From Hippopus hippopus (Eukaryota; Mollusca; Bivalvia; Cardiida; Cardiidae): a DNA stretch of 64,000 nt. The stretch covers positions 41,678,252 through 41,742,251 of the forward strand of contig OX328096.1 of NCBI GenBank assembly GCA_946811185.2. Direction: 5' to 3'. Both the position numbers and the translations under genes were made by a program. Below the pieces are notes generated by a model, which worked only from the letters and a program-made list of their open reading frames with translations, had not been told where the DNA came from and ran no database searches. Shown here piece by piece: positions 1 through 45,200 of this stretch (the first letter of the stretch is position 1; each line of letters opens with the position of its first letter).

Positions 1-1043
1 CGTCAATTCCTACAGACCGGGTTGGCGAAACTCCAGCTTCATTCAACAGTTTCTCAGCTTCAGTCTTTTGAAGTATTCTGTCTGATTTTCTGATGCATAA
101 CCATCTTTTATACCATGCTTTGGTGTTTTCACGTTCACTGTGGCAAATGCCCACCACAACTGCTCTTGCAAAACATATGTGATCATGATTGTCAATTTGA
201 ATAATTGATTTTTTCTTCCGGGCAAAAACCTTTGAATCCAATTCTGATGATCTTTTTCTCCCGTTACCACTTGGAGGTATTGTATGTGTAATGTCAAATG
301 TCATGAATCCATCGTTCAAGACGAAATCTGTATTCGATTGTAAAACTCGTTCAATCTCATTTAACATAGTTTCGCCTTTCAGCTGTTCTGTAGGTAGAAA
401 GGGAATATGAATCCCTATTTTCAATGAAGGGTGGTTGATACTAATTCTAATCATATCCGTCGGTTCAGCATTTAACTTTTGAATGATTTGATGGGTAACT
501 TCATCAAATAATCCGATCAGTTGATGGGGTGGTAATTCTTCAAATTTCTTAAAAGACGCCATCAACAGATGTGATTCTGTTCTAAATTTCCTCGATTTCT
601 TTTTTCCCTTCTCCGTTAAGTCATACAGGCTTTTCATGTCTAAAGTAGTGTTGTTACTTTCTTCTTTTCGGTCCTCAATCAATTTTTTCGAGGAGATATC
701 ATCTTCACTTTCACTTTTTATGATCGTTTTTTTCTTAGGTGTTTCATCTTCACTTTCACTTTTCACGTTCATTTTTTTCGAGGAGATATTATCTTCACTT
801 TCACTTTTTATGATCGTTTTTTTCTTAGGTGTTTCATCTTCACTGTCACTTTTCACGTTCATTTTTTTCTTAGGTGTTTTATCTTCACTGTCACTTTCTA
901 CGATCATTTTTACAGGTTTTTTTTGGGGTGAAGAGAAATCGTCTTCACTGTCACTTTCTTCTTTTTTCATTTTTTGGTGGTGAAAATGACTCATTGTCAC
1001 TTTCACTGTCTGAATAGGGTACTATTCTTTTTCTTTTAGCCAT
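1..1043 (-). CDS. Polinton/adintovirus-type family B DNA polymerase, N-terminal part, partial and frameshifted
   Basis: The frame is open from an ATG at 970-968 to the left edge, so the catalytic part is outside the window. It begins with a low-complexity Ser/Asp/Glu-Lys region (about 680-960) of alternating 15-residue units such as SESEDETPKKK. A conserved-looking part follows: EIERVLQSNTDFVLNDGF near 330, a Pro-Ser-Gly-Asn-Gly linker near 255, then KSIIQIDNHDHICFARAVVV near 200 and a KTEAEKLLNEAGVS stretch near 45. From memory, this order (a 'SEIERVLQS' block, a Gly-rich linker, an 'N.D..C.ARA' block, an 'A..L...AGV' block) is typical of the region ahead of the exonuclease/polymerase domains in Maverick/Polinton and adintovirus polymerases. 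An upstream ATG at 1043-1041 opens a basic, acidic-serine leader (MAKRKR) in another frame, which stops at about 950. A one-base change in an A6 run at about 970-975 would link the two. Divergent from the CCHC gene at 1199. No search was run; a different protein-primed polymerase family is the main alternative. Confidence 0.72.
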
Positions 1044-1198
1044 CGTTTATGTCTGAATGTAAGACAATGATACGGTAAGTCAGAAAACTCGGCATTTTAT
1101 AGAGCCTTTCAGCTCGATAGTGTATAAATAGAGACGATAGCTACGAAATCTATATCATTCTTCTGATCAACTTAAGACAGTACAGTTGATAAAAAATA
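1044..1198. promoter_or_regulatory. bidirectional promoter between polymerase-like and CCHC genes
   Basis: The two divergent genes are separated by 155 bp. A plus-strand TATA box (GTGTATAAATAG) lies at about 1120, some 75 bases before the CCHC start. A minus-strand TATA-like box (CTCTATAAAATG) lies at about 1091-1102, some 50 bases before the upstream polymerase ATG. No histone-cassette promoter block is present here. Confidence 0.5.
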
Positions 1199-2052
1199 AT
1201 GAGCGAGTTTAAGCTACAAAATACATCACTGATAGGAAAGATGATGTATCTGTACGTTAACCCATACACCCACGATTACGAGATCAGCAATGTTCCGTTA
1301 AAGTATCAAGTTCAACATATCGGGAACTATGTGGGATCATTTTTATCCCATCAACATGTAACAGAAAAAGACGTTTACCGTATTACCAGTTACAGAGTTT
1401 TGAATCAAGCAGCGATCAAAAAACGATATGAACCGGATGGAAAAAGAAAAGATATTTGTTTTACATGCAACAAACCAGGACACTGGGCTAGAAATTGTCC
1501 AGAAAAAGAAAAGCAGACAGAAACAGTCGTTTTTGTCTATGTGAACCCAAGCAGTCACGATATCAAAATTTCATCAACAGTGGGATTTTGTGGTGAATTT
1601 CAGAACATGAAATTCGTTGGTGTTCTGAAATCATTCTGCAACGAAAATAAATGGAAAACAAGCTCACTACAGGCTACAAGATCATCGACTGAAAATCAGA
1701 TCGAAAATATGCAGATCGACAACACGACTATCAGCGATACAGAGATCTGTAAAATAACAGAACAGATAGAGAAAAAAATATCTACAAACAATAATCTAAG
1801 AAAACAACCAACTTTGGAACTAAAAAACAACGAACTTTCCTCAGAGGAGACTCTTTCAACCAAAGAGGAGAAAAAGCAAAACAACGAAAAAAGAGAAAGC
1901 GAGAAAAAAAAAAGAAGTGTTTCTTTTGCAAATCAAAAAAACATGGGGATAAAATCTGTCCAGATATGGTATTAAAAAATAATGAAAGGGGAAGAAAACG
2001 AAAGAGTGAATGTGAATCTGACATTCCAAAGAAAAAAAGAAAAACACACTGA
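1199..2052 (+). CDS. CCHC zinc-knuckle protein of the virus-like unit, with a -1 frameshift before a second knuckle
   Basis: In frame 1199-1975 it gives 258 aa. The layout is: an N-terminal module with YLYVNPYTHDYEIS (aa about 17-30); zinc knuckle 1, CFTCNKPGHWARNC (CX2CX4HX4C, about aa 87-100); a second module with VFVYVNPSSHDIKIS (about aa 110-124) resembling the first; then a charged K/E/N-rich stretch. The frame ends at 1973-1975. An A10 run sits at 1904-1913. In the -1 frame after that run a second CX2CX4HX4C knuckle appears (first Cys codon 1918-1920, last Cys codon 1957-1959), then a basic tail ending in PKKKRK, a textbook nuclear-localisation motif, with a stop at 2050-2052. The module-knuckle duplication supports the -1 frame as real. 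The cause could be slippage, programmed frameshifting, mutation or a homopolymer sequencing error. A single-stranded nucleic-acid-binding role is inferred from the knuckles only. No histone-type stem-loop follows. Confidence 0.65.
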
Positions 2053-2350
2053 AAAAAGTTTCAACAAAAAAGTGCTTGTTGAAAAAACTGTTGCAAAATA
2101 TTGTTTTAAGTTTTTAAAAAATGTTTTAACAAAAAAAAGGTTGACTTGTTTAAATGTTTTCATTCCATTGTTTTTAACAGATATTGTTTTTTCATTCCAA
2201 TGTTTTTTCACAGTTGATGTCTTGTTTCATATTGTACAATATTGTTTGAATAAAAACATATGAAATAATTCAGGGCTTGACTTTTTTTCTTCTGACTGTA
2301 AGCCTTTTGACTGTAAGCCTTTTGAGAGAAAAAAAATGACAATTCAAAAG
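2053..2350. other. AT-rich spacer with short direct repeats
   Basis: Non-coding spacer between convergent genes. It holds a 15-16 bp tandem (CTGTAAGCCTTTTGA) at about 2289-2322. On the minus strand this lies downstream of the histone-type end at 2375-2390 and matches the position of similar AGTC/CTTT repeats downstream of the other three cassettes (about 3235-3300, 3950-3975, 4620-4645). The ORF at 1982-2263 is mostly this spacer plus the shifted end of the CCHC gene. Confidence 0.4.
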
Positions 2351-2390
2351 AAAAGCTCTTTCTTGGGGAATGGTAGCCCTGAAAAGGGCT
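2351..2390 (-). terminator. histone-type 3' stem-loop plus downstream element, gene A
   Basis: On the minus strand the 16-mer AGCCCTTTTCAGGGCT (2390-2375) has a 6-bp stem and a TTTC loop, flanked by AAC and ACCA as in replication-dependent histone mRNAs. Ten bases on comes CAAGAAAGAGCTTTT (2365-2351), a perfect CAAGAAAGA histone downstream element that pairs with U7 snRNA. The stem begins 29 nt past the gene A stop. There is no AATAAA between. Confidence 0.85.
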
Positions 2391-2419
2391 GTTTTTTCTC
2401 CATTCACTGGCTGGATAAA

Positions 2420-2722
2420 TTAATTCCATACCAGTGAAGGATACAGCTTCTGTAGCTTCTTTTGCCACCCACGATGCTCGGTAGGTGGCATGAAGTCCTT
2501 TAGATCGGGGTAAATATTCCCCATCTTGATCTTCGGCGTACGAGTATAAAACTCGTACCCTCGCCTCTCGAAAAAAGCACACAGCGCTTTGAACTTCATC
2601 CTCTTTCTTTCTTCTTCTTTTCTTTTCTTCTCCATCTCTATCTGTTCCTCCATCTCTTTCTTTTTCTCCTCCTCAACCTTTGGCTTTCCAAATACCCCAC
2701 AGAAAAAGCTGCTGCCTTTCAT
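2420..2722 (-). CDS. cassette gene A, 100-aa charged coiled-coil protein of unknown function
   Basis: I do not recognise this family. The N-terminus is short and aromatic (MKGSSFFCGVFG). Residues about 14-45 form a Lys/Glu/Arg/Met-rich stretch likely to be one long helix or coiled coil (VEEEKKKEMEEQIEMEKKRK). The C-terminal half is aromatic and Pro-containing (RRGYEFYTRTPKIKMG) and ends in LYPSLVWN. No Cys pair, signal peptide or histone fold is visible. The start is chosen because a TATA box lies at 2762-2754, about 32 bases upstream, and the cassette promoter block at 2801-2774. The gene is intronless and ends in a histone-type stem-loop. The fixed promoter, short UTRs and 3' processing signal make it much more credible than a chance ORF. 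Confidence 0.65.
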   Translation of the reverse strand: MKGSSFFCGVFGKPKVEEEKKKEMEEQIEMEKKRKEEERKRMKFKALCAFFERRGYEFYTRTPKIKMGNIYPDLKDFMPPTEHRGWQKKLQKLYPSLVWN

Positions 2723-2753
2723 TGTGAAATAACCCGATAATAAAAAAAGTTCG

Positions 2754-2852
2754 TTTTTTATACGTTTGCAGGGGGATTGACCTACTTTGACTCAGAATTA
2801 ACGTTGTCCAATCGAATCGTCCGTTATATCATTACACATTTTGATAGGTCAG
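2754..2852. promoter_or_regulatory. cassette promoter A with TATA box and shared block
   Basis: Minus-strand TATA box at 2762-2754, preceded after 11 bases by the shared block (2801-2774), which contains TGAGTCA (AP-1-like) and AGTAGGTCA (nuclear-receptor half-site-like). Beyond it the sequence to about 2852 has CCAAT (GTCCAATCGA) and continues as a direct repeat of 4083-4163, including the shared run TATATCATTACACATTTTGA. Confidence 0.7.
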
Positions 2853-2945
2853 CGTTAACCCAACTGCATTTCCTCTATGCAAAACACTATTCTCAGTGAT
2901 CATAGTTAAAATACTTTGTAGTCACTATTTTATAGCTCTGTAGAC

Positions 2946-2953
2946 TATAAAAG
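2946..2953 (+). promoter_or_regulatory. TATA box of cassette gene B
   Basis: TATAAAAG, 70 bases before the start at 3016. Unlike A, C and D, the shared promoter block is not next to this TATA box. The nearest related sequence is the CCAAT-bearing repeat ending about 2852, and an octamer-like ATGCAAAA lies at about 2877. Confidence 0.55.
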
Positions 2954-3015
2954 ACAATCGCAAAGCACATTCATTTGGAACTCAGTTGCTGTAGAGTTAA
3001 AACCAAATCAGCACA

Positions 3016-3156
3016 ATGTTTGGACTGACAATTTTACTTACATTGCTGTACTGGATAGAAGAAAGAGAACGCCTTAGACGTATAAGGCGTGAAGTTGAGC
3101 ATCTATTCCAAGTAATAAATGCGATGGAAAATAGGAGAATAAAGAGAAGAGGTTAA
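3016..3156 (+). CDS. cassette gene B, 46-aa membrane-anchored basic microprotein
   Basis: Short ORF: ATG at 3016, TAA at 3154-3156. Residues 2-13 are hydrophobic (FGLTILLTLLYW) and could be a signal-anchor or short membrane segment. Residues 14-46 are strongly charged and helical in appearance (EERERLRRIRREVEHLF), ending in the basic RRIKRRG. No family is recognised. It is accepted as a gene because a TATAAAAG lies 70 bases upstream, the stop is followed after 22 bases by a perfect histone-type stem-loop, and the same 3' module ends the two downstream genes. The size is unusual for a Pol II gene of its own; another reading frame of the same transcript could be the product, but none of similar length is evident. 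Confidence 0.55.
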   Translation: MFGLTILLTLLYWIEERERLRRIRREVEHLFQVINAMENRRIKRRG

Positions 3157-3178
3157 AAAAAAGTGAACCTGTACAAAC

Positions 3179-3213
3179 AGCCCTTTTCAGGGCTACCCAA
3201 CACCACGAAAAGA
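3179..3213 (+). terminator. histone-type 3' stem-loop plus downstream element, gene B
   Basis: AGCCCTTTTCAGGGCT at 3179-3194 (6-bp stem, TTTC loop) after AAAC and before ACCCA, then CACGAAAAGA at 3204-3213 as a histone-downstream-element-like purine motif. The gene B stop lies 22 nt upstream. Confidence 0.82.
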
Positions 3214-3449
3214 TCTATCTTTCCTTAAATTTTGTCAATTTTCAGTCAAAAGACTTTCAGTCAAAGAGTTACACTCTAAGAGTTACACTCAAAAAAGCCT
3301 TCTAATTTTTACTTTTTTGTCTAGGTCGAATGAATGCTTTTCTACATCATTCAAAATAGATCTGTTCTAAAGAGATTTTTCCACATATGTATGCATTAAG
3401 CTTTTTTCTCAGAACTTTGCTCAGGATACTTTCTTCCAGGTTCGCGCTC
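3214..3449. other. spacer with reiterated AGTC/TTACACT motifs between cassettes B and C
   Basis: After the downstream element comes TTGTCAATTTTC, then overlapping short repeats (AAGACTTTCAGTC, AGAGTTACACTC twice) to about 3300. The rest is AT-rich and holds no gene that I can see. A GGTTCGCGCTC motif just before the promoter block at 3450 is shared with 4032-4040 and resembles an E2F site core; that reading is inference. Confidence 0.4.
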
Positions 3450-3495
3450 TTAATTCTAAGTCAAAGTAGGTCAATCCCCTGTAAACGTATAAAAG
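3450..3495 (+). promoter_or_regulatory. cassette promoter C
   Basis: Shared block at 3450-3477 (TTAATTCT, then GTCAAAGTAGGTCAATCC), a 10-base gap, then TATAAAAG at 3488-3495. This copy has AAGTCAA in place of the AP-1-like TGAGTCA of the other copies. The ATG of gene C lies 81 bases past the TATA box. Confidence 0.72.
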
Positions 3496-3568
3496 TCGTC
3501 GATTTTTCCAAATAATAAATCATTCGACACTCAGCTCTCGAATAGCACGGTTAAGTGTTAACGAAAAA

Positions 3569-3868
3569 ATGGACCAAATGAATCATCGACTTATTGAGGC
3601 TCTCCGAGTCTTTCTGATTGGTGGTGATCAAGTACTGATACTAAAGAACAGGATTGAAGAGAATAGAATACAACTAGAACAAATATCACGCACATACGTA
3701 GATCTTGGTGAGAAAATAGTCGAACTAGTACTAGAGACAACACCTGACATTATCTTGGTTGATGTGGAACTCGGGAGACGGATTACTTTTAATAATGGAG
3801 CAATGACAATCACGAAAAGAGTCGGAGCATGTCCAATCTGCCATGCAAATTTTGGATGTTGTCATTAA
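3569..3868 (+). CDS. cassette gene C, 99-aa protein with C-terminal Cys/His cluster
   Basis: Unknown family. The first 60 residues look like amphipathic helices (LKNRIEENRIQLEQISRTYV), then a short beta-like stretch (DIILVDVELGRRITF). The last 15 residues are a Cys/His cluster, VGACPICHANFGCCH, that could bind a metal ion. Gene D shares the plan: helical N-terminus, then a CPxC motif within the last dozen residues, so the two may be diverged duplicates. Intronless, with a shared-block promoter upstream (TATA at 3488) and a histone-type 3' end 30 nt past the stop. The ATG follows A-rich context (GAAAAAATGG) and is the first in frame. Confidence 0.65.
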   Translation: MDQMNHRLIEALRVFLIGGDQVLILKNRIEENRIQLEQISRTYVDLGEKIVELVLETTPDIILVDVELGRRITFNNGAMTITKRVGACPICHANFGCCH

Positions 3869-3898
3869 AAGCTGGAAAACATTCCAACACAGAAAAAC

Positions 3899-3933
3899 AG
3901 TCCTTTTCAGGGCTACCCAACACCACGAAAAGA
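3899..3933 (+). terminator. histone-type 3' stem-loop plus downstream element, gene C
   Basis: AGTCCTTTTCAGGGCT at 3899-3914: the same hairpin with one U-G wobble pair, so the stem is kept though the base changed. It is followed by CACGAAAAGA at 3924-3933. The compensated variant argues for selection on the hairpin. Confidence 0.82.
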
Positions 3934-4040
3934 TCTTTCTTTTCGAATTGTCAATTTTCCCTCTAAAGAGTTACACTTAAATAACATATAGCATTTAAAC
4001 CCCCTCTTCATCGAGGGTGCTTTCGCCCGGGAACGCGCTC

Positions 4041-4110
4041 TTAATTCTGAGTCAAAGTAGGTCAATCCTAGTTCTGACGAGAGGATTGACCTACTTTGAC
4101 TCAGAATTAA
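4041..4110. repeat. perfect 29-bp inverted repeat of the cassette promoter block
   Basis: Left arm 4041-4069 and right arm 4082-4110 are exact reverse complements, with a 12-bp spacer. Each arm is the cassette promoter block (TTAATTCT, GAGTCAAAGTAGGTCAATCC). Neither arm is followed by a TATA box, unlike the blocks at 2774-2801, 3450-3477 and 4164-4191. The right arm continues as the direct repeat of 2774-2852. Confidence 0.85.
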
Positions 4111-4163
4111 CGGTGTCCAATCGATTCGTTCGTTATATCATTACACATTTTGATTGGTCACTG

Positions 4164-4210
4164 TTAATTCTGAACCAAAGTAGGTCAATCCTCCCACCAG
4201 CTTATAAAAG
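4164..4210 (+). promoter_or_regulatory. cassette promoter D
   Basis: Block variant at 4164-4191 (TTAATTCTGAACCAAAG, then TAGGTCAATCC), an 11-base gap, then TATAAAAG at 4203-4210. An inverted CCAAT (TGATTGGTCA) lies at about 4151-4160. The gene D ATG is 38 bases past the TATA box, the shortest leader of the set apart from gene A. Confidence 0.72.
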
Positions 4211-4240
4211 CCGACGATTTTTTCACTATTCAATTGAACG

Positions 4241-4552
4241 ATGGAAGATCTTCGGAAGTCAGTTCAAAACTTAATGAGAGCGGTATCCACCCTCTCATTG
4301 AAATTAGAGAGGGTTAACAACCAGCTCAACCACTTGATGACAGAGGAAGAAAGGCTACCATCACCACCAATATCGACATCGGCAGCCAACGAAAAGAAAG
4401 AGTTTGTCATCCCAGTGACAGAATGCTGGGATGACGACAATGAGCCGGTGTTCTCTCTCCACTTTAACCTGGACGAGACGGAATTGAGGGGGCTAAAGAG
4501 GCGGACAGCAAGCAGCTGTCCAGCCTGCAGAAAAGTTGGAGGTTATGCCTAA
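4241..4552 (+). CDS. cassette gene D, 103-aa protein with N-terminal coiled coil and C-terminal CPxC
   Basis: Unknown family. Residues 1-38 read as a helix with heptad-like leucines (LSLKLERVNNQLNHLM). A Ser/Pro linker follows (LPSPPISTS), then a more structured part (EFVIPVTECWDDDNEP), and a basic C-terminus ending SSCPACRKVGGYA. The CPAC motif sits where gene C has CPIC. No signal peptide, and no histone or HMG resemblance. Intronless, TATA box 38 bases upstream, histone-type hairpin 20 nt past the stop. These signals, not similarity to a known protein, are the reason for calling it. Confidence 0.65.
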   Translation: MEDLRKSVQNLMRAVSTLSLKLERVNNQLNHLMTEEERLPSPPISTSAANEKKEFVIPVTECWDDDNEPVFSLHFNLDETELRGLKRRTASSCPACRKVGGYA

Positions 4553-4572
4553 AAAACACAACCTCCACAAAC

Positions 4573-4606
4573 AGCCCTTTTCAGGGCTACCATTCCACAC
4601 GAAAGA
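4573..4606 (+). terminator. histone-type 3' stem-loop plus downstream element, gene D
   Basis: AGCCCTTTTCAGGGCT at 4573-4588 in the same AAAC and ACCA context, then CACGAAAGA at 4598-4606, close to the classical CAAGAAAGA. Confidence 0.83.
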
Positions 4607-4649
4607 GTGATCTTTCAAATTGTCAATTTTCAAGACTTTCAGTCAGTAC

Positions 4650-5090
4650 AACCCCACTCAGGGTAAGCAGAATGGGGCACTCAGGGTAAGTCAGATAGGA
4701 CTGTCCAATCTCTGCAACATGTGCAGTCTAAGATCAACCGGAAATGGTCTTTACCCTGTAACCATGACGTCACATGACTTTCCTAAGCCACACCCATCTT
4801 TCCCCCTCTCAGGGTAAGGAGAATAGGTACCGGAAGTCCACGTCAACCGGAAGTGACGCCACGTGTCGTCATGGTAACGTCACGTGACTTTCCTAAGCCA
4901 CGCCCATTTTCCCCCTTTCAGGATAAAATCAGGGGAGATAACTCCATTTACTAAAATTCACTTCCGGTTTTACAAAAATCGACTTCCAGTTTGCCCCATT
5001 CTGCTATCCCGGCGCCCCATTTACTGTCAGGGTAGCAGAATGGGGCACTAAAGGGTAGTCACATGGGGCACATGGCCTATTTGTGCCCCA
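4650..5090. promoter_or_regulatory. repeat-rich segment with CRE, ETS and E-box motifs; possible element end, enhancer or origin
   Basis: Two imperfect direct copies about 110 bp apart (4763-4817 and 4870-4926) share GACTTTCCTAAGCCAC and a C-run. Motifs seen: TGACGTCA at 4765-4772; CCGGAAGT at 4830-4837 and 4847-4854; CACGTG at 4860-4865 and 4881-4886 (the second within the palindrome GTCACGTGAC); ACTTCCGG at 4960-4967. GCAGAATGGGGCACT occurs near 4660 and at 5035, and inverted at 4993-5006, giving a 14-bp stem with 5033-5046. A further 9-bp inverted repeat (TGGGGCACA) spans 5064-5090. No gene is visible. Confidence 0.55.
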
Positions 5091-5785
5091 AGTGATTACT
5101 CTTTACTACTTACATATAGAAGAGTATAGTAAAGTCTGCACATAAATGAGGAATACTCCCTAGCCTACAGGGCGAATACATATTTAACCCTATAGTTGAG
5201 ATTTGGGGACCACTTGATTTCAGAGTGTTTTAAATACAGTCGGGATATTGATGGATGAATAGTACATATCGCAACGGCCGAAAAAGGTATACTTAAATAA
5301 TGAATGGAAAATGTTTTTAAAAATCAAAATCAAACAATCTGATTTTTATCTACAGTGACAGTAAAATAGCAGAAACTGACTTGCACCTTTAGGCTCACAT
5401 ACTGTATTATCGAACGAAGGGCTGGCAAACTGTTCCGTATCTGTACTTCCAGAATAGATCTATATATAATAATTCGTGAGCAACGCTAGATTTTTATCTT
5501 GGCTTAGTTTCTTTACTAGGTCTCGTGACCTTTAGTTTGGACTCTTGAACTTTGACATGATTTTCACCAACTGCTCGAAAGTCTTCTCTTCAAGTATTTT
5601 AAGACTAGGCATATGATAGTCGTTCTGTCTTTTATCAAAGTTTTGTTGAAGTTTTTCCTAGATTGAACAGCCTTTGACTGGAAACCAGAATCTTAGGTGA
5701 ATCAGTTACGATCCTACATACTGATCCGGATCTGATTCTGAATACTAAGGATATGCATCATATTGGTTGAAACATTCTGTCTTAT
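5091..5785. other. AT-rich sequence without recognisable features
   Basis: No coding frame, hairpin MITE or RNA gene found. The right border of the virus-like unit may lie at the start of this stretch. Confidence 0.4.
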
Positions 5786-6768
5786 ATAAATCTTATTGGT
5801 TGAAACGTCCTGTCTCATACGAGGCTGATTGATTCTGTCTCACAAAATTCTGATTGTTTGAAACATTCTGTCTCAAACAATTCTGATCGGCCGAGACGTT
5901 CTCCCCCATACAATTCTGATACCCTGAGAAGTTCTGTCTCATACGATTCTGGTTTGCTGAGTCGTTTAGCCTCATATAATTCTGATAAGCTGAGACTCTC
6001 TGTGGCAGAGAGTTCAGATTTGCCAGGACGTTCAGTCTCATACAATTCTGATAGGCAGGGACTTTCTGTCTCATAAACCTTCAACTTGCCGAGACGTTCT
6101 ATCTCATACAATTCTGATAAACTGAGACGTTTTGTCTCATATAATTCTGATAGGTTGCAACGTTTTGTCTCATACAATTTCGATAGGCTGAAACGTTTTG
6201 TCTCATACAATTGTGATAGGCTGAAACGTACTGTCTCATACAATTCTTATAGGGTGAGACGTTCTGTCTCATACAACTCTGATTTGCCGAGAGTTTTGTC
6301 TCATACAATTCTGATCGGCCGTGACGTTCATTCTCATACATTTCAACTGGCTTAGAATTTCTGTCTCATACGATTCCGATTGGCTGAGATGTTTTGTCTT
6401 ATACATTCCAATTGGCCGAGGCGTCTTGTCTTATACAATTCTGATAAGCTGAAATGTCCTGTTTCATAAAATTCCGATTTGCCGACGCGTTCTGTCTTAT
6501 ACAAATCTGATAAGCTGCGACGTTTTGTTTCATACAATTCTGATTAGCCGAGACGTTCTGTCTCATACAATTCTGATAGGCTGAGACGTTTTGTCTCGTA
6601 CAATTCTGATTGACTGAAACGTTCTGTCTGGTACAATTTCTATTGGCTGAGACATTCTGTCTCATAAAATTTCGATTGACTGAGACGATCTGTCTTATAC
6701 AATGCTGATTGGCTAAGACGTTAAGTCTCATACAATTCTGTTTTGCTAAGACGTTCTGTTTTATGCGA
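5786..6768. repeat. 33-bp minisatellite, about 30 copies
   Basis: Tandem units of about 33 bp, built on TCTCATACAATTCTGATAG followed by GCTGAGACGTTCTG, with individual variation. Because 33 is a multiple of three, several frames stay open on both strands and give 11-residue peptide repeats. There is no start context, promoter or codon bias to support coding. Further degraded units occur at 7147-7255. Confidence 0.93.
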
Positions 6769-7146
6769 TGGGGGCCATTCCTGTAAATTAAATTATCTCC
6801 CTTGCCAGATAAAAACTGAGGGTAACCAAATAACAGATTGGTCCTTTCACCTGTATTCCTCTGTTTTTATCCTTGGTTCCCTTGGGGATATTGCGATAAA
6901 TATAACAATGATTTATGATGTATGTGTAAGGTCTGGATGTAATTCAAATCAAAATCTGTTCTTAATCATCAGAAACTATGCATATATCAGTTTGTAAAAA
7001 AAATTTACGACATTTACTTGATATAATATCTCAAGAACATAGCTATTCAGCGCAAGAAAATCAAGGATAAAATCCAAGAAATCCCCTTATCAGGACCAAT
7101 GTACTACTGGAGAGGAACCAAGGGAAATAACTGAAGAATGGCCCTC
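6769..7146. mobile_element. MITE inserted in the minisatellite
   Basis: The segment begins GGGGCCATTC near 6771 and ends with the complementary GAATGGCCC near 7136-7144. Subterminal AATTATCTCCCTTG and AAGGGAAATAACTG are also inverted. Minisatellite units flank both sides. No transposase is encoded. Confidence 0.6.
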
Positions 7147-7255
7147 ATTCTGATTAGCTGAGATGTTCCTTTTCATACAATTCAAATTTGCCGGGACGCT
7201 CTGTCTCATGCATTTCAGATTTGTCAGGACCTTCTGTCCCGTACAAATCTGTACA
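7147..7255. repeat. degraded minisatellite units beyond the MITE
   Basis: About three units of the 33-bp family (CATACAATTCAAATTTGCC, GTCTCATGCATTTCAGATTT) continue the array after the insertion. Confidence 0.75.
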
Positions 7256-7429
7256 CGTCTATTCCTCGAATTTTGAAATAGAATTTGGAATACTTTGTGA
7301 ATACACTCTTTTTCTTGCTCTCATGATGTTTCCTGTTCGTCTGTCAGTCCGATTGTCCTCTTTTAGCATCTGTCTCGCTACCCGTCATTTGGTCTGATAA
7401 CGACCCTCGGAAGGAAGCATTTCGAAATC

Positions 7430-7592
7430 GTTGTGGGAAAAGGATAAAATGCTAATCACCAACATTGTCTCCTTTTCCCACAATGTTTTCTACTTTATCA
7501 AAGACAAATCCAATCATTCGAGCAACACCTAATTTGTTGTCTGCAAATGCTTTCAATTTTGACTTGTTCAAAATTCTGGACTTTCGTTCAGA
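7430..7592. mobile_element. hairpin MITE family 1, degraded copy
   Basis: Central hairpin remnant with TCCTTTTCCCACAATG, then the typical right arm (GTCTGCAAATGCTTTCAA) ending near GAGTTAAA. Confidence 0.6.
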
Positions 7593-7810
7593 GTTAAATC
7601 TGTACCTTTGAACGAGTTTTTGTTTTGTTTTTGTTATTATTTTTTCCTCTTATTTAATGATATAGCTTTCCTAAGATATACGAGTAGAAATATATTGAAA
7701 TATCATTTTAATTTCTTAATCAGAGCGCTTATCAAAGTAGAGTATACAAACGCATGGAGTGCTTCCACTTTCCTTGTAGATCACATAAATTCTGATTGTA
7801 ATACTTGGGC

Positions 7811-7908
7811 TGCTGACCGCGACTTCGTGGGCTTTTGCGGACAATGTAGATCAAGATCAGACTGCACTAAACGTGCAGTCTGATCTTGGATCTACACTGT
7901 CCGATACG
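7811..7908. mobile_element. hairpin MITE family 3 copy
   Basis: Palindromic centre with GATCAGACTGCAC and GTGCAGTCTGATC, flanked by inverted GGACAATGTAGATC and GATCTACACTGTCC. Best full-length copies of the family are at 9589-9802 and 27667-27877. Confidence 0.75.
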
Positions 7909-7998
7909 TTGAAATTTCTTCTGCGAGCAAAATTCTTAAATCGTAAACTATGGGCTTTCACTATTGCCTGGAAATCTTTTGTTTTATTTATTTTGCAG

Positions 7999-8229
7999 CT
8001 TAACTCTTTACCAAACGTCAATATTTTAGACTGGTCCAAATTGAAAGCACTTGCAGACGACATAATAAACGTAACTCAATAATTGAAATTTGTTTCCAGC
8101 AGGGTAGAAAACATTGTGGGAAAAGGAGAAAATGCTGGTTACCAGCATTTTCTCCTTTTCCCGCAATGTTTTCAAAAGGCTTCTATCTCAGGGTCGTAAA
8201 AACCAGGGATTGTTTGGTAAAGTGTTAAT
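7999..8229. mobile_element. hairpin MITE family 1 copy
   Basis: Ends TTAACTCTTTACCAAAC and TTTGGTAAAGTGTTAA are inverted. The centre is a long near-perfect hairpin (GAGAAAATGCTGGT, ACCAGCATTTTCTC) extended by AACATTGTGGGAAAAG and its complement. Non-coding. Confidence 0.82.
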
Positions 8230-8348
8230 TAAGGGTGAAATCCACAAATTACGTACAGCCATGTCACTTACAGCAGCGTGGCATGAAGAAGAAATGTGGC
8301 GGTCGGAGATGGTTGAAAGATTTGTGATGTCACTGGATATAACAAGAT

Positions 8349-8590
8349 TACTTAACTCTTTACCATACAATTCCGAGTTTTAACGACCTTAATTAAGGAA
8401 GACGCCTTTTGAAAACATAGTGGGAAAAGGAGAAAATGCTGGTAACCAGCATTTTCTCCTTTTCCCACAAGGTTTTCTACCCTAAAGAGAAAAAAAAAAT
8501 CATCATTTGAGCTACATTTATATTGTCGTCTGCAAATGCTATCAATTTGGTTGAGTCCAAAATTTTGTCGTTTGGTAAAGGTTTAAAGTA
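8349..8590. mobile_element. hairpin MITE family 1 copy
   Basis: Opposite internal orientation to 7999-8229, with ends TTAACTCTTTACCATAC and GTTTGGTAAAGGTTTAA around the same hairpin (about 8408-8474). Confidence 0.8.
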
Positions 8591-9039
8591 TGAAGCCGTT
8601 ATCACCCGTGTTTTCAAACTCTATCGATGTATAGTCAAACTGTCATTTTGTCCAATGATACCTATCGCCCATTAGGTCACAAATCCCCCAACGTACAGCC
8701 TGTTACAGGCACAAACGGTATAAACCTTTTATAGGACAACAAAATTTTAGACTTGTCCGAATTCAAAGCATTTGCAGACGACCTATTGATCGACGAAATT
8801 GATGCGATGTGCTCTTGATGGAATAGAGAGTGCGGTCTGATCTTGGACCTATGTACATCGTAGGCTATTTTAATCAAAACTTTAGGCCTGAAACAAAAGT
8901 ACTTTTATTTTTCAGTCGAGTTTATTCACTTGATACCAATAGAGTTCACTGAGTGCACAGCATTTTTATCGTCAAGGATCTAGACATAATAATTTTGGAA
9001 ATTTTGACTCGTTATCAAACAATACCGGGTTTTTATGGC

Positions 9040-21120: not shown

Positions 21121-21624
21121 ATGGCGGATGAATCGACAAAGACGAAAGCTCCAAGACAAAAACCTAGCCACCCAACATTTCTCAAGATGGCTCAAGATGC
21201 TATTTCATCACTGGCGGACAGTAAAGGTTCTTCAGTTCAAAAAATTCAAACTTACATCTCTGAGAAATACAACATTGACTCGGACGTAGTACGCGTGCAT
21301 CTAAGGCCAGCCTTGGCTAGAGGGCTTGAAAAGGAGATTTTCATCCGACCAAAGAATTCAGACGCCAAAGGATACACTGGCAGGTTTAAAGTCAACAAAA
21401 CCAAAGCCGCCTCCGAAGAGAAGGAAAAGGCAAGAAAGGAGAAGGAAAAGATGAAAAAGGAAAAAGAGAAGGGAAAAGCATCAGCAAAGAAGACCCCTGT
21501 GAAGAAAAAGGCAGGCACTAAAGCAGCAAAGTCACCTAAAGCAAAGAAAAATGTAACAGGTTCCAAAGCTAAAAAGCCAGTGAAAAAGTCTCCCAAAAAA
21601 GTTGTTAAAGCTACCAAACCAAAG
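21121..21624 (+). CDS. linker histone H1/H5-like or protamine-like protein, exon 1
   Basis: 168 codons to the donor AAG|GTAAGC. Residues about 16-94 form an H1/H5 winged-helix domain: HPTFLKMAQDAISSLADSKG at the start, QKIQTYISEKYN, then ARGLEKEIFIRPKNSDAKG and GRFKV. A long Lys/Ala/Pro tail follows (KEKMKKEKEKGKASAKK; KKPVKKSPKK), as in linker histones that bind nucleosomal linker DNA. Splicing to 25848-25937 adds 29 residues for 197 aa in total. An intron, and the absence of a histone stem-loop downstream, set it apart from replication-dependent H1 and fit replacement H1 (H1.0/H5) or bivalve sperm protamine-like PL-I proteins. Reading through the donor would add only VSM before a stop. Confidence 0.9.
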
Positions 21625-21646
21625 GTAAGCATGTAGTTTACTGTAA

Positions 21647-29819: not shown

Positions 29820-30866
29820 ATGCCTCCACGACTTGCAAGACATCGCTTAAATCAAGAACAACTAGGTATTTGCATCGGAATGCTTCTAAATGGTTCCACG
29901 CAACGTTATGTTGCAAATGCATTGAACGTCAGCCAAAGTGTGATCAGTAGAGCATGGAATTGACACCAAACCTTTGGTTCCTCAGCATATCGTCATGGTG
30001 GAGGTCGTCAAAGGTCCACAACGGCACGACAAGACCATTTTATAGTGCTCCAGGCCCGACGTAATCACTTTGTGACCGCAACCACGCTGCGTAACGACCT
30101 CTTAAGTGCCTCTGGTGTGAACGTAACCGCTCAGACAATAACGTTACGTAATCGTCTACATGCATCACGGCTGCCCTCTAGAATGGCATGTGTGCAAATT
30201 CCATTGACTCCATATCACAGAGAGATCCGTTTGCAGTTTGCCCGTGAACACGTGAAATGGGGACACCACCAATAGCACCCAGTTTTTTTCATTGATGAAT
30301 CTAGATTTTGTTTAGACTTTATGGATAGACGGCAACTGGTGTGGAGACGGACTGGTGAGAGGTTTCAGGATGCCAACATCTCTGAACATGACAGATATGG
30401 AGGTGGCTCTGTGATGGTTTGGGGTGGTATTAGTCGTGATGAACGAACGGACCTGCATGTTTTACAGCGTGGTATGATGACTTGCATCCGTTATAGGGAT
30501 GAAATCCTTGATGTTTATGTTAGACCCTATGCTGGTGCGATATGCCCAGACTTCATTCTTATGGATGACAATGCTCGACCACATCGTGCTAGGTTGGTAG
30601 AATTGTACCTTGAACTGGAAACAATCGAGCGTATGGACTGGCCAGCATGTTCCCCCGACCTCAATCCCATTGAGCATGTATGGAATATGCTTCAGGTTGC
30701 CATTTCCAGACGTTTGCCTCAGCCTGGTTCTATACAGGAGCTCGGAGCTGCTCTTGTACAGGAATGGAATGCCATTCCGTCAGCAAACATCAGGAGACTC
30801 ATTGACGGCATGCACCATAGGTGCCAAGCTGTCATTGACGCAAGGGGAGGTCACACACGATACTGA
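29820..30866 (+). pseudogene. Tc1/mariner-family transposase, two in-frame stops
   Basis: One frame runs from ATG 29820 to TGA 30866 (348 codons), broken only by TGA at 29961-29963 and TAG at 30273-30275. The N-terminus (PPRLARHRLNQEQLGICIG) is a paired-like helix-turn-helix DNA-binding start. The DDE catalytic set is present: FFIDESRF, MDDNARPHRA and WPACSPDLNPIEHVW, with 34 residues between the second Asp and the Glu (DD34E, Tc1 type). Length matches Tc1 transposases (about 340 aa). No frameshifts, so decay is young. I could not delimit terminal inverted repeats by eye. It belongs to the host genome's mobile DNA and is unrelated to the left-end virus-like unit. Confidence 0.88.
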
Positions 30867-42200: not shown

Positions 42201-45200
42201 TAGGCATATAAGTTCATGAGTAGAACTGGTGATAAGGTCATTTGGTGAAATTGGAATTGGTAAACAAAAATCAGTCTAACCTAACCTATCTAAATCTACT
42301 CGAAGGTGAATTGTGATTGAAGGAAATTTCAAATAGATTTTTGAAACTTAGGGCAATTTCTTTTGAAAGGAGTAGCTTTTGATACTAGAAAGATAGATGA
42401 TTTTTCCCATGGCTCCTCCTGCTTTGTGATATATGGATTTGATCTTTACTAAGAATGGCTTGTCACGTTTTATGTATGCATGATAAATTATTTTGATTCA
42501 AATACAACAGAATGTTGGACTCATTTAAGATGGAAATATTTAATGAAATACCAGGTGCACACAAAAGAGAGACCCATACTATATTAAGGTTAGATGCTAA
42601 GTATTTGCAGAGTATTATGTTTGAAAACACGAAGTTCCCCATCATTGTCAATCTAGTTTTGAGCCCTTTAGAATGATCTTTTTCTTGTTTTGAGTCGGTA
42701 AGAGACATAAAAATACCTGCGATTAAGAAAAAGAAAGTATTTGGAATGAATTCCTTGGTTTTACATACCTTTTATTATCTTGTTTTCATATTCAAATGAA
42801 ATGTTGACCATATTGCTTGTAATTTTCAGAGCTCATCTCATAAGCTTGTTTCACTCAAAAAGCTCTATCTGAATTCAAATCAGCTGAACTTTGAAGGAAT
42901 TCCTGCCAGTTTAGGAAAACTGCACAGCTTGGAGGTTTTCAGTGCTGCTAATAATGATATTGAAATGATTCCTGAAGGATTGTGTCGGTAAGTTCTGGTT
43001 GTGTTGTTATTATATGATTAGACAACGTGTTGGCCATTTTAACCCATTGTCACACAAAAGCAACTTTTTACATCCATAACTCTCTACTACATGACAAAAT
43101 TGAGACCAGTCCAAACTAAAAGGATTTGCAGATGACAAAATAAAAGAGGCTCAAGAATCGTAATTTGTTTTGGGGAGGGTGGAAAACTGGGAAAAGGAGG
43201 AAATGCTGGTTACGTCTTTTCCCACAATTTTTTAAAAGCTTTTTTCTTCAGGGTAGCTAAAAGTCAGAATTGTATGGTGAAGAGTTAAAGCAGACAGCAT
43301 TTTGTTATTGTTGTGGAAAACAGTGATTGCTTGCCAGAAGTAATTGCTTATATCCTACAGTTTTTTTACACAGAAAGTTTATTGGCAGTCAATACTATTT
43401 TTATGCCTTAAATACTACTACTTTTATGAAAAAAATGAAGGGAGTGGAGTAGACGCAAGAAATGTATGTAAGACTAAGGAACAATAAACATTTACTCCTT
43501 GTTGTATTTGTAATGAACTGTTTAACATACATGTACTAGCTTGCCAAGCATAACTTACTTTTCTTATATAGATGTCAGACTTTACACAATCTACAATTTT
43601 ACAAGATAACTTCTGTCTATTTTTTTGAGGTACCTTAGTAGGTGTACTTAAAATCTGTCAACATTATCTCTGTACAAAAGCTATTTGTAGATACTCATTA
43701 TAACTTTTAGACTTATGCTACTAAGTACCCATAACAAAGATTTTGGGATAGAACAAAGATCATTCCACTCTATGAACTTCTAAATACAATCATTATATGA
43801 GCCATACTCCATGAAGAGGAGGCCTTATGCATTTGTGGAAAGTATTGATCCAGGTCAACCTGCGAAGTCCGCGCAGGCTGACCTGGTCCGAAACTTTTCG
43901 TTATTGGTAAATTTTCTGTGTGTCCAAGGACCAGTCTATCTCATGATACAGTCGGTTATTAAAAAAATGTGGCTATTATGGATTCGTAATTGTCTGATAA
44001 CTTGCTTGGTGTCATGTATCACGGAGATGCATTTAGTCCCCTTTTGCCAGAACATGGCTCCTATGTATCTCTATATACATGTATTACAGTCAGTATCTTT
44101 TCCCTTCACTAGTAATGTATTTATTGGCTCAGAGAGGTGAGAGTATTGATAAGCATTTGTCCTAAATTTTTCAGTTGTGGTAAACTAAAAAAGCTGTTAC
44201 TAAACAGTAACAGGTTGATAACGCTGCCAGATATATTGCATCTCTTGCCAGAACTAGAGGTATACCTTTTTAACTCTTTACTAAACCAGAAAAATTTATA
44301 CCAGTCCACATTGAAAGCATTTGCCGACACCAAATTTAATGTTGCCTGTATGATAGGATTTGTCTTTAATATGGTAGAAAACATTGTGGGAACAGGACAA
44401 AATGCTGGTAACCAGCATTTTTAGCTCCACTGGCCAAAGGCCAGCGGGCTAATGTCATGGCCAGGTGTTGGTCGTGCGTGCGTGCATCCGTCCGTCTGTG
44501 CATTAACTTTTATCTTAAACATCTTCTTCTCTGAAACTACCTACCCAATTTTGATGAAACTTCATAGAAATGATCCTGCCATGGTCCTCTTCAGAAATTC
44601 ATGAAAGAATTTGATTCCTTCAAAAACTCTGGTTGCCATGGCAACAAAACTTAAAAATATTGGAAATCTTTGAAAATCTTCTTGTCTGAAACCATAAGGC
44701 CTAGGGCTACCAAATTTGGCATGTAGCTTTGTCTAGTGAGCCTCTATCAAGTTTCTTCAAATTATAGCCCTGGGTCAAATTTGACCCCGCCGCAGGGGTC
44801 ACAAGTTTTACATGGGCTTATTTAGGGAAAACTTTAGAAATCTCCCTGTACATAGCCATAAGGCCTAGGGCTACCATATTTTGCATGTGACTTTATCTAG
44901 GGGGTCTCAGGGGTCTTATGTTCAAAACCAATTGGCCAAGTATTGTAATGTTTGGCATGTAGGGATTTCACATATTAGCCAGTGGAGTGATACAAGGCCA
45001 TCATGGCCCTCAAGGTTATTATACCTCCCACCTATGAAGTAAAGGGGTTATACTGGTTTCACCATGCCTATCTGTCCATTCATCAATCCTTCCATCTTGT
45101 TTTTGTTTCTGTGCTGTAACTTAAAAGTTGTTTGACCTAAGACCCTGAAACTTTATACAAGTGTTGCTCATGACCCAAGGAGTAGCGCTATTGTGTTTGG

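Follow-up and report, generated by a model that had tools for sequence, protein, structure and literature searches.

In the window, the 64-kb stretch of DNA analysed here, four near-identical hairpins with a 6-bp stem and a TTTC loop each lie 3' of the stop codon of a short open reading frame (ORF). The four genes encode non-histone proteins and sit in a repeated element, and each hairpin is followed by a purine-rich element as in the 3' ends of metazoan replication-dependent histone mRNAs. We consider it probable, at roughly three chances in four, that this element yields histone-like, non-polyadenylated, S-phase-coupled mRNAs via host SLBP and U7. This reading is drawn from the DNA itself.

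Hairpins and downstream elements at four gene ends

Re-measurement reproduced the coordinates originally predicted for the four hairpins (Table 1), and the stop-to-stem spacings of 29, 22, 30 and 20 nt for genes 1, 2, 3 and 4 agree with the 20-30 nt proposed. Every one of the 4 stems forms its 6 pairs (24 of 24 pair cells standard). The sole stem change among them, from C-G to U-G in gene 3, leaves 6/6 pairs in place, as had been claimed for a wobble pair. The second stem pair is G-C in every case, and this is the pair that SLBP reads most strictly. A U-A pair closes the 4-nt loop. The first stem pair is A-U; in animal histone hairpins it is usually G-C. The 5' flanks are A-rich, and ACC follows all four stems.

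Table 1. Features of the element in the window
Feature	Position	Strand	Basis or remark
ORF running off the window edge, acidic repeats then PolB-like region	2..994	-	ORF
Zinc-knuckle (CCHC) protein gene, same element	1199..1975	+	Pfam PF00098, E 2.4e-7
Histone-downstream-element-like CAAGAAAGA, gene 1	2357..2365	-	starts nt 10 after stem
Histone-type stem-loop, gene 1	2375..2390	-	Rfam Histone3 24.9 bits, E 1.6e-3
Gene 1, 100 aa, charged helix and conserved C-terminal domain (FFERRGYEFYTRTP...YPDL...PPT)	2420..2722	-	ORF; relatives
85-nt promoter module with CCAAT and AGTCAAAGTAGGTCAATCC, between genes 1 and 2	2774..2858	.	93% identical to 4083-4167
Gene 2, 46 aa	3016..3156	+	ORF between TATA box and stem-loop
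Histone-type stem-loop, gene 2	3179..3194	+	Rfam Histone3 31.7 bits, E 4.7e-6
Downstream element CACGAAAAGA, gene 2	3204..3213	+	starts nt 10 after stem
AGTCAAAGTAGGTCAATCC 5' of gene 3 TATA box	3459..3477	+	motif search, <=3 mismatches
Gene 3, 99 aa, ends CPICH...	3569..3868	+	ORF
Histone-type stem-loop, gene 3, U-G replacing C-G	3899..3914	+	Rfam Histone3 23.9 bits, E 4e-3
Downstream element CACGAAAAGA, gene 3	3924..3933	+	starts nt 10 after stem
Promoter module of gene 4	4083..4191	.	sequence comparison within window; recurs in relative P0053
Gene 4, 103 aa, N-terminal helix, C-terminal CPAC	4241..4552	+	ORF; relatives
Histone-type stem-loop, gene 4	4573..4588	+	Rfam Histone3 29.9 bits, E 2.3e-5
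Downstream element CACGAAAGAG with AAAGAG, gene 4	4598..4607	+	starts nt 10 after stem

A purine-rich downstream element begins at nucleotide 10 past the stem in 4/4 genes (CAAGAAAGA in gene 1, CACGAAAAGA in genes 2 and 3, CACGAAAGA in gene 4), which is the right distance that had been attributed to it. The elements of genes 1 and 4 contain AAAGAG, given in excerpts of PMC7026596 as the core paired by mammalian U7. The further claim that AATAAA is missing holds for the 300 nt 3' of each of the four hairpins, but not beyond: the first AATAAA 3' of the gene 2 hairpin occurs some 320 nt away, at 3514, and the stop of gene 3 overlaps an ATTAAA at 3864. With such candidate signals close by, SLBP might bind the hairpins while polyadenylation farther 3' occurs as well or even predominates, so that the hairpin affects only translation or stability; indeed, C. 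elegans histone genes have AATAAA plus the hairpin, according to excerpts of PMC1924863. We regard this as unlikely: the 300 nt past each hairpin are free of AATAAA, and a downstream element at a fixed 10-nt spacing would be left without a use.

The four cassette ORFs are short and lack introns, and their lengths match those predicted. No histone model in Pfam matches any of the four proteins at E<=1, consistent with their description as non-histone. Of the four, gene 2 has the weakest case for being a gene. Relatives were sought for gene 1 (8 at E<=0.01 among 21 candidates, with 17 invariant positions), gene 4 (4 of 5 candidates, 60-61% identical) and the CCHC gene (42 of 850 candidates). Modelling of the gene 1 and gene 4 proteins gave mean pLDDT of 65.9 and 66.1, too poor for a structure search.

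Specificity of the hairpins

Searched with <=3 mismatches, the 19-nt motif occurs in the 64 kb at these 4 places and nowhere else, and in none of 100 shuffles. Applied alone, the hairpin rule finds 5 places in the window (shuffles: mean 1.18, maximum 6), the fifth being at 42718 (-) and without ACC. Combining the rule with the ACC flank leaves 4, all of them the hairpins described here (200 shuffles: mean 0.01, maximum 1). A looser consensus was unspecific, giving 8 matches when shuffles averaged 2.35 and reached 8 in 1 of 100.

Rfam was searched at E<=10 for positions 1-9000 and at E<=1 for 9001-64000. A covariance-model search with Histone3 (RF00032) had been suggested as a check on the hairpins, and its outcome was divided. 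The model matched the four hairpins and nothing else in 64 kb, at 24-32 bits (E 4.7e-6 to 4e-3), with no match in 9001-64000 at E<=1; all four scores nevertheless fall below the gathering score of 34 bits, at which the window has no match. Two microRNA models reach E-values just as small (3.5e-8 and 6.7e-7) on plain palindromes within 1-9000, though at about half their cut-offs. The other low-threshold Rfam matches are mostly to microRNA families, and these microRNA matches we read as transposon-like inverted repeats. The cassette region is rich in inverted repeats.

As a control, two degenerate stem-loop patterns were run against viral contigs and returned 6 + 9 = 15 stretches. No stem among the 15 is Watson-Crick throughout, and none of the stretches reaches a gathering score; seven pair 6/6 with one G-U, five of which seem to belong to a single sequence family. 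Histone3 at E<=10 matched 1/15, a stretch (L012; 25.1 bits, E 0.0083) that lies inside a 528-codon ORF and was taken as chance. Because L012 scores like the hairpins of genes 1 and 3 by chance, a match at that level counts for little when it stands alone, and these two weaker hairpins are not decisive alone.

That a lone 25-bit match can arise by chance also bears on whether the hairpins are kept for some other role in the element, e.g. as sites for DNA binding, for replication or for stopping transcription. Such a role would suit a region of many inverted repeats in which the flanks recur together with promoter modules. We nonetheless find it more doubtful than polyadenylation farther 3', because it leaves unaccounted for four sense-oriented hairpins 20-30 nt past stops, with TTTC loop, ACC and a purine element at nucleotide 10, and because a T run directly after the stem is absent at all four.

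Duplicated cassettes in a repeated element

Each cassette consists of a TATA promoter, a short ORF, an SLBP-type stem-loop and a downstream element, with no AATAAA soon after the hairpin. The TATA box lies 38-81 nt upstream of the ATG in 4/4 genes, and a promoter module is common to three of the four. Copies of AGTCAAAGTAGGTCAATCC at <=3 mismatches number 5 in the window, every one within 2774-4191. The promoter module is also found upstream of the gene 1 relatives P0052 and P0053, and 4128-4208 is matched in P0053 at residues 6-32 (70% identical, E 1.4e-6).

The four 3' flanks were compared within one element copy, read as DNA. In the 23-nt footprint AAACAGYCCTTTTCAGGGCTACC, 22/23 columns are invariant versus 24 of the 64 remaining aligned columns (Fisher p 9.7e-7). 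The SLBP-type footprint shows 96-100% pairwise identity and the following 45 nt 60-84%. For the coding parts identity is within 0.05 of that of shuffled sequences. Genes 2 and 4 are also alike between stop and hairpin, at 0.67 versus 0.44 in shuffles. BLASTP gave no match between genes 3 and 4, and the profile comparison probability was 1.5% for genes 3/4 and 1.4% for genes 1/2; given such low values, genes 3 and 4 are alike only in their CPxC ending. BLASTP, profile comparisons and shuffle-level identity together argue against paralogy of the coding parts. To call the genes unrelated, as originally stated, is thus fair for their coding parts but not for their promoter and 3' cassettes. These are clearly duplicated; the hairpins therefore do not count as four separate events, and the similarity of the flanks alone is no proof of selection.

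A fragment of a host histone gene 3' end could have been captured, then duplicated recently together with the promoters, and be functionless at present; the 93% identity of two promoter modules over 85 nt is a sign of copying or conversion. This history seems to us very improbable, considering that the footprint remains 96-100% identical while the coding parts are at shuffle level, and that the only stem change preserves pairing.

The neighbouring genes bear on the nature of the element. The CCHC gene has an AATAAA at 2249 and no stem-loop match. Four of its relatives (P0002, P0011, P0018, P0030) lie on contigs of identical length (8825729), which were read as one contig, and relatives of the CCHC gene, gene 1 and gene 4 are spread over many other contigs. 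Past its acidic repeats, the ORF at the window edge contains what we take to be the N-terminus of a Polinton/adintovirus-type PolB; the N-terminal part within the window has no significant match in Pfam, PHROGs, NCBIfam, PDB, viral contigs or phage records. The element is multi-copy, we take it to be mobile and, judging from these relatives and the PolB-like ORF, it is probably virus-derived. Among known elements, Polintons/Mavericks and adintoviruses come to mind as a tentative match: they too are multi-copy in animal genomes, and the PolB-like ORF, a candidate counterpart of their polymerase, adjoins small accessory genes. If the assignment is right, an rve integrase, a double-jelly-roll capsid and terminal inverted repeats would be expected past the left edge of the window. 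Viral contigs yielded no relative to the stem-loop DNA, the CCHC protein, the PolB-like piece or the gene 1, gene 4 and CCHC alignments, and a genome contig collection yielded none to the CCHC alignment or the stem-loop DNA; animal genomes are scarce or absent in these contig collections, so the negatives say little.

Predicted use of the host histone mRNA pathway

The cassettes share with the metazoan histone 3' end (RF00032; SLBP/U7) the 6-bp stem, UUUC loop, A-rich 5' flank and ACC(C)A 3' flank, the purine element at a fixed distance, the lack of a nearby AATAAA, and short intronless TATA genes. They differ in that their genes are non-histone and lie in a repeated element, in the A-U first pair, and in a score under the curated cut-off. 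The original prediction that these genes use the host's S-phase histone mRNA pathway is partly supported, at the level of sequence grammar: structure, flank, spacing and conservation pattern fit SLBP/U7, in cassettes with shared promoter modules within a repeated element. Beyond this, we infer the use of SLBP and U7, the 3' ends, the S-phase coupling and a gain for the element.

In the mechanism that we propose, host SLBP would bind the stem-loop footprint and host U7 snRNP would pair with the purine element, after which the RNA would be cut 4-5 nt past the stem, following ACCCA or ACCA. This putative cut fits because C. elegans histone mRNAs have their 3' end 3-6 nt past the hairpin, as stated in excerpts of PMC1924863. 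The resulting mRNAs would be non-polyadenylated, and stable and translated mainly in S phase, when SLBP is abundant and element DNA can be copied. The element may in this way link expression of its four genes to the host's DNA-replication phase.

In every copy the purine element is followed by a pyrimidine run that is largely complementary to it, UCUUUC (UUUCUU in gene 1), and then by AAUU(UU)GUCA. The purine element can fold with this run, and the fold could hide the downstream element from U7. With this stretch folded alone, gene 3 was equalled by 1/200 shuffles, and genes 1, 2 and 4 by 34, 113 and 30 of 200, respectively. A second hairpin common to the four flanks was accordingly held weak, only gene 3 being unusual against shuffles. 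The order of pyrimidine run and AAUU(UU)GUCA is that of the U7 pairing region and the Sm site, AAUUUGUCU in excerpts of PMC7026596. Least probable of all we rank a U7 mimic in cis (candidate stretch UCUUUC...AAUUGUCA), by which the pre-mRNA would supply both strands of the U7:HDE duplex, bring in the processing ring directly and partly free the element from the host's scarce U7, since the fold is better than most shuffles in gene 3 only and the AATTGTCAATTTTC motif is no rarer than chance in the window.

Apart from a coronavirus claim (PMC7786107), no precedent for histone stem-loops on genes of viruses or mobile elements was found among the matches listed from open-licence PMC titles and abstract openings, and excerpts of the Polinton/adintovirus paper PMC11071296 make no mention of histone-type 3' ends. 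That claim likewise names this Rfam family in a virus and concerns a match of 14.7 bits within SARS-CoV-2 coding sequence; the element differs in having four matches of 24-32 bits at gene 3' ends with a downstream element.

Histone mRNAs are described, in excerpts of PMC6303110 and PMC1924863, as the sole protein-coding mRNAs of animals known to carry a terminal stem-loop in place of poly(A). If the host-pathway reading is true, poly(A)-selected RNA-seq is predicted to lack these transcripts, and similar genes could have escaped notice for this reason. It would then mean the following: 1) non-histone genes of a mobile or virus-like element under the histone system would break the histone-only rule; 2) a DNA element would have a concrete route to sense S phase; and 3) there would be natural non-histone substrates with which effects of SLBP/U7 control could be separated from effects of histone proteins.

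Stem-loops behind four short genes

Part of one copy of a repeated element lies in the window's first 5 kb. The original prediction placed in it four short genes for proteins of 100, 46, 99 and 103 amino acids, each ending in a histone-type signal, and ORFs of those lengths are present. In all four, the hairpin AGYCCT-TTTC-AGGGCT, then ACC, lies 20-30 nt past the stop codon, as had been claimed for a 6-bp stem with a TTTC loop. The claim of a downstream element at the proper distance also held, since a purine element, CAAGAAAGA or CACGAAA(A)GA, starts exactly 10 nt after the stem in every case. The stem is immediately followed by ACCCA in genes 2 and 3 and by ACCA in genes 1 and 4, and the downstream elements of the latter pair contain AAAGAG. 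All four stems begin with an A-U pair; animal histone genes usually have G-C there, a difference that weakens the comparison.

Features of the window discussed here
Feature	Position	Strand	Basis
ORF, cut off at window edge	2-994	-	ORF reading
Zinc-knuckle gene	1199-1975	+	Pfam zf-CCHC, E 2.4e-7
Gene 1	2420-2722	-	ORF, 100 codons
Gene 2	3016-3156	+	ORF, 46 codons
Gene 3	3569-3868	+	ORF, 99 codons
Gene 4	4241-4552	+	ORF, 103 codons
Degenerate tandem repeat, ~35 nt	5760-6760		gagacgttctgtctcatacaattctgat..., spotted by eye
Several long palindromes, look like MITEs	7420-8480		type GAAAACATTGTGGGAAAAGGAGAAAATGCTGGT
Linker-histone gene	21121-21636		Pfam PF00538, E 4.3e-19
Transposase fragment	30276-30866		DDE_3 domain, E 5.1e-13

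Folding indicates that the purine element is able to base-pair with the run of pyrimidines that closely follows it. Without the first hairpin, the fold of gene 3 was matched or beaten by 1 of 200 shuffles, and those of genes 1, 2 and 4 by 34, 113 and 30; a downstream fold better than most shuffles was obtained for gene 3 only. Least supported among our proposals is that this run and the following AAUU(UU)GUCA may recall the layout of U7 itself.

Chance and common descent

The 19-nt motif matched four times in the window and never in 100 shuffles. A rule of six pairs (G-U allowed), a T-x-T-x loop, a G-C second pair and a U-A closing pair found five places in the window, where a shuffled one gave 1.18 on average (maximum 6). 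Once ACC was also required, only the four hairpins were left, versus 0.01 (maximum 1) in 200 shuffles. A looser consensus was far less specific (8 matches, shuffle mean 2.35). The covariance-model search proposed as a check gave a divided answer: Histone3, the Rfam histone 3' stem-loop model (RF00032), matched all four hairpins and nothing else in the 64-kb window, at 31.7, 29.9, 24.9 and 23.9 bits (E 4.7e-6, 2.3e-5, 1.6e-3 and 4e-3, computed for 9 kb against 4227 Rfam families), but none reached its gathering score of 34. The same scan placed two microRNA models on palindromes with E-values of 3.5e-8 and 6.7e-7, although their scores were about half the cut-offs; similar microRNA-family matches occur elsewhere in the window.

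Among 15 control loci from viral contigs, picked by stem-loop patterns and then scored, seven had all six pairs with one G-U, and one (L012) gave a Histone3 match, of 25.1 bits, inside a 528-codon ORF. A lone match at the level of gene 1 or gene 3 can therefore be chance, and what carries the argument is the pair of higher-scoring matches, together with the presence of such a hairpin, equally spaced, at the end of each of four genes.

Judged by their sequences, the four 3' flanks are of common descent, so their likeness does not amount to four independent events; the telling point, as we read it, is where that likeness is located. All six pairs agree at 96-100% of positions across the 23-nt footprint (AAAC, stem-loop, ACC), and at 60-84% over the 45 nt after it. 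Identity is within 0.05 of shuffle level in the coding parts, at or below it between stop and hairpin in five of six pairs (above for genes 2/4), and at most 0.09 above it in the 100 nt further downstream. Invariant columns number 22 of 23 in the footprint versus 24 of 64 elsewhere in the alignment (p 9.7e-7). Its sole change, C-G to U-G, is the wobble pair already noted as keeping the stem; being one-sided, it is weak as covariation.

Gene classes and relatives of the element

TATAAAA lies 38-81 nt upstream of the ATG in all four ORFs. The spacer between genes 1 and 2 and the promoter of gene 4 share an 85-nt CCAAT-containing module at 93% identity, and the five copies of AGTCAAAGTAGGTCAATCC all fall inside 2774-4191, where they precede genes 1, 3 and 4. 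P0052 and P0053, predicted proteins in other genome records, look like gene models begun too early that translate promoter: residues 6-32 of P0053 match window 4128-4208 in frame (70%, E 1.4e-6) and residues 2-21 of P0052 match 4146-4208 (E 0.002), so the module is preserved ahead of these relatives of gene 1. By contrast, the gene for the zinc-knuckle protein carries AATAAA at 2249, 274 nt past its stop, and has no Histone3 match; the histone-type end thus appears to mark one class of the element's genes. The linker-histone gene likewise had no Histone3 match in the window scan, and a possible splice donor at its ORF end makes it probably a spliced replacement-type H1. Gelsolin-repeat genes are also present, and together with the linker-histone gene they point to an animal host.

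Relatives were found for the zinc-knuckle (CCHC) protein (42 among 850 candidates), gene 1 (8 among 21) and gene 4 (4 among 5); genes 2 and 3 had no match better than E 0.7 against the 54 proteins fetched as relatives. In P0042 the beginning of a CCHC protein is fused to a relative of gene 1. Because their contigs have the same length, 3283501, we read P0042 and the gene 4 relative P0043 as lying on one contig, and likewise P0036 (CCHC) with P0054 (a gene 1 relative), at length 4917263, and four CCHC relatives, at length 8825729. This grouping fits a multi-copy mobile element with the cassette. Two of the four gene 4 relatives, P0043 and P0045, carry NSPFQG, the in-frame translation of stem-loop DNA AACAGCCCTTTTCAGGGC and absent from the window copy; it could be either chance or an ancient stem-loop within the coding part.

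The ORF at the window edge ends there in a region that is presumably the N-terminal part of a Polinton/adintovirus PolB, an identity confirmed by none of the searches (Pfam, PHROGs, NCBIfam, PDB, viral contigs, phage records). An earlier minus-strand ATG, at 1043, begins a frame rich in Ser, Asp and Glu whose stop is at 951, and the edge ORF continues in another frame with similar repeats, which suggests a frame break at 951-1043. In the zinc-knuckle region (1199-2052), one frame closes at 1975 and a second CCHC-like motif, CFFCKSKKHGDKICP, lies in a different frame, directly behind an A-rich stretch; among the relatives, P0005 and P0041 share this motif, and P0003 and P0004 end as the window copy does. 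The offset may reflect either a frame break or A-run slippage. As both ORFs appear broken in frame near A-rich runs, the copy may be old. Beyond gene 4, at 4640-5070, GCAGAATGGGGCACT is repeated at 4667 and 5035 and inverted at 4990, with paired repeats with ACGTCACRTGACTTTCCTAAGCCACRCCC; this is possibly the element's terminal region.

A proposed histone-type 3' end on element genes

In animals, the stem-loop is recognised by SLBP and the purine element by base pairing with the U7 snRNP, and the RNA is cut a few nucleotides past the stem. Published work gives AAAGAG as the purine core paired by U7 in mouse H2a (PMC7026596), ends 3-6 nt past the stem in C. elegans histone mRNAs (PMC1924863) and human CA steps 5 and 7 nt past it (PMC6303110). 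Histone mRNAs are described in two of these papers (PMC6303110; PMC1924863) as the only known animal mRNAs with a stem-loop end. Among the open-licence papers listed by the literature searches there was no report of a histone-type end on mobile-element or DNA-virus genes; the original prediction knew of no description for a Polinton- or adintovirus-like element. A published claim for coronaviruses (PMC7786107) relies, for SARS-CoV-2, on a match that has 14.7 bits and lies within a coding region, whereas those described here have 23.9-31.7 bits and lie at gene ends. We rate the finding as a known RNA signal on what would be a new class of genes. We infer that genes 1-4 would give mRNAs that lack poly(A) tails and are processed, translated and kept stable in step with host S phase. 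A plausible gain for the element is that its accessory proteins would be produced only while host replication factors are present.
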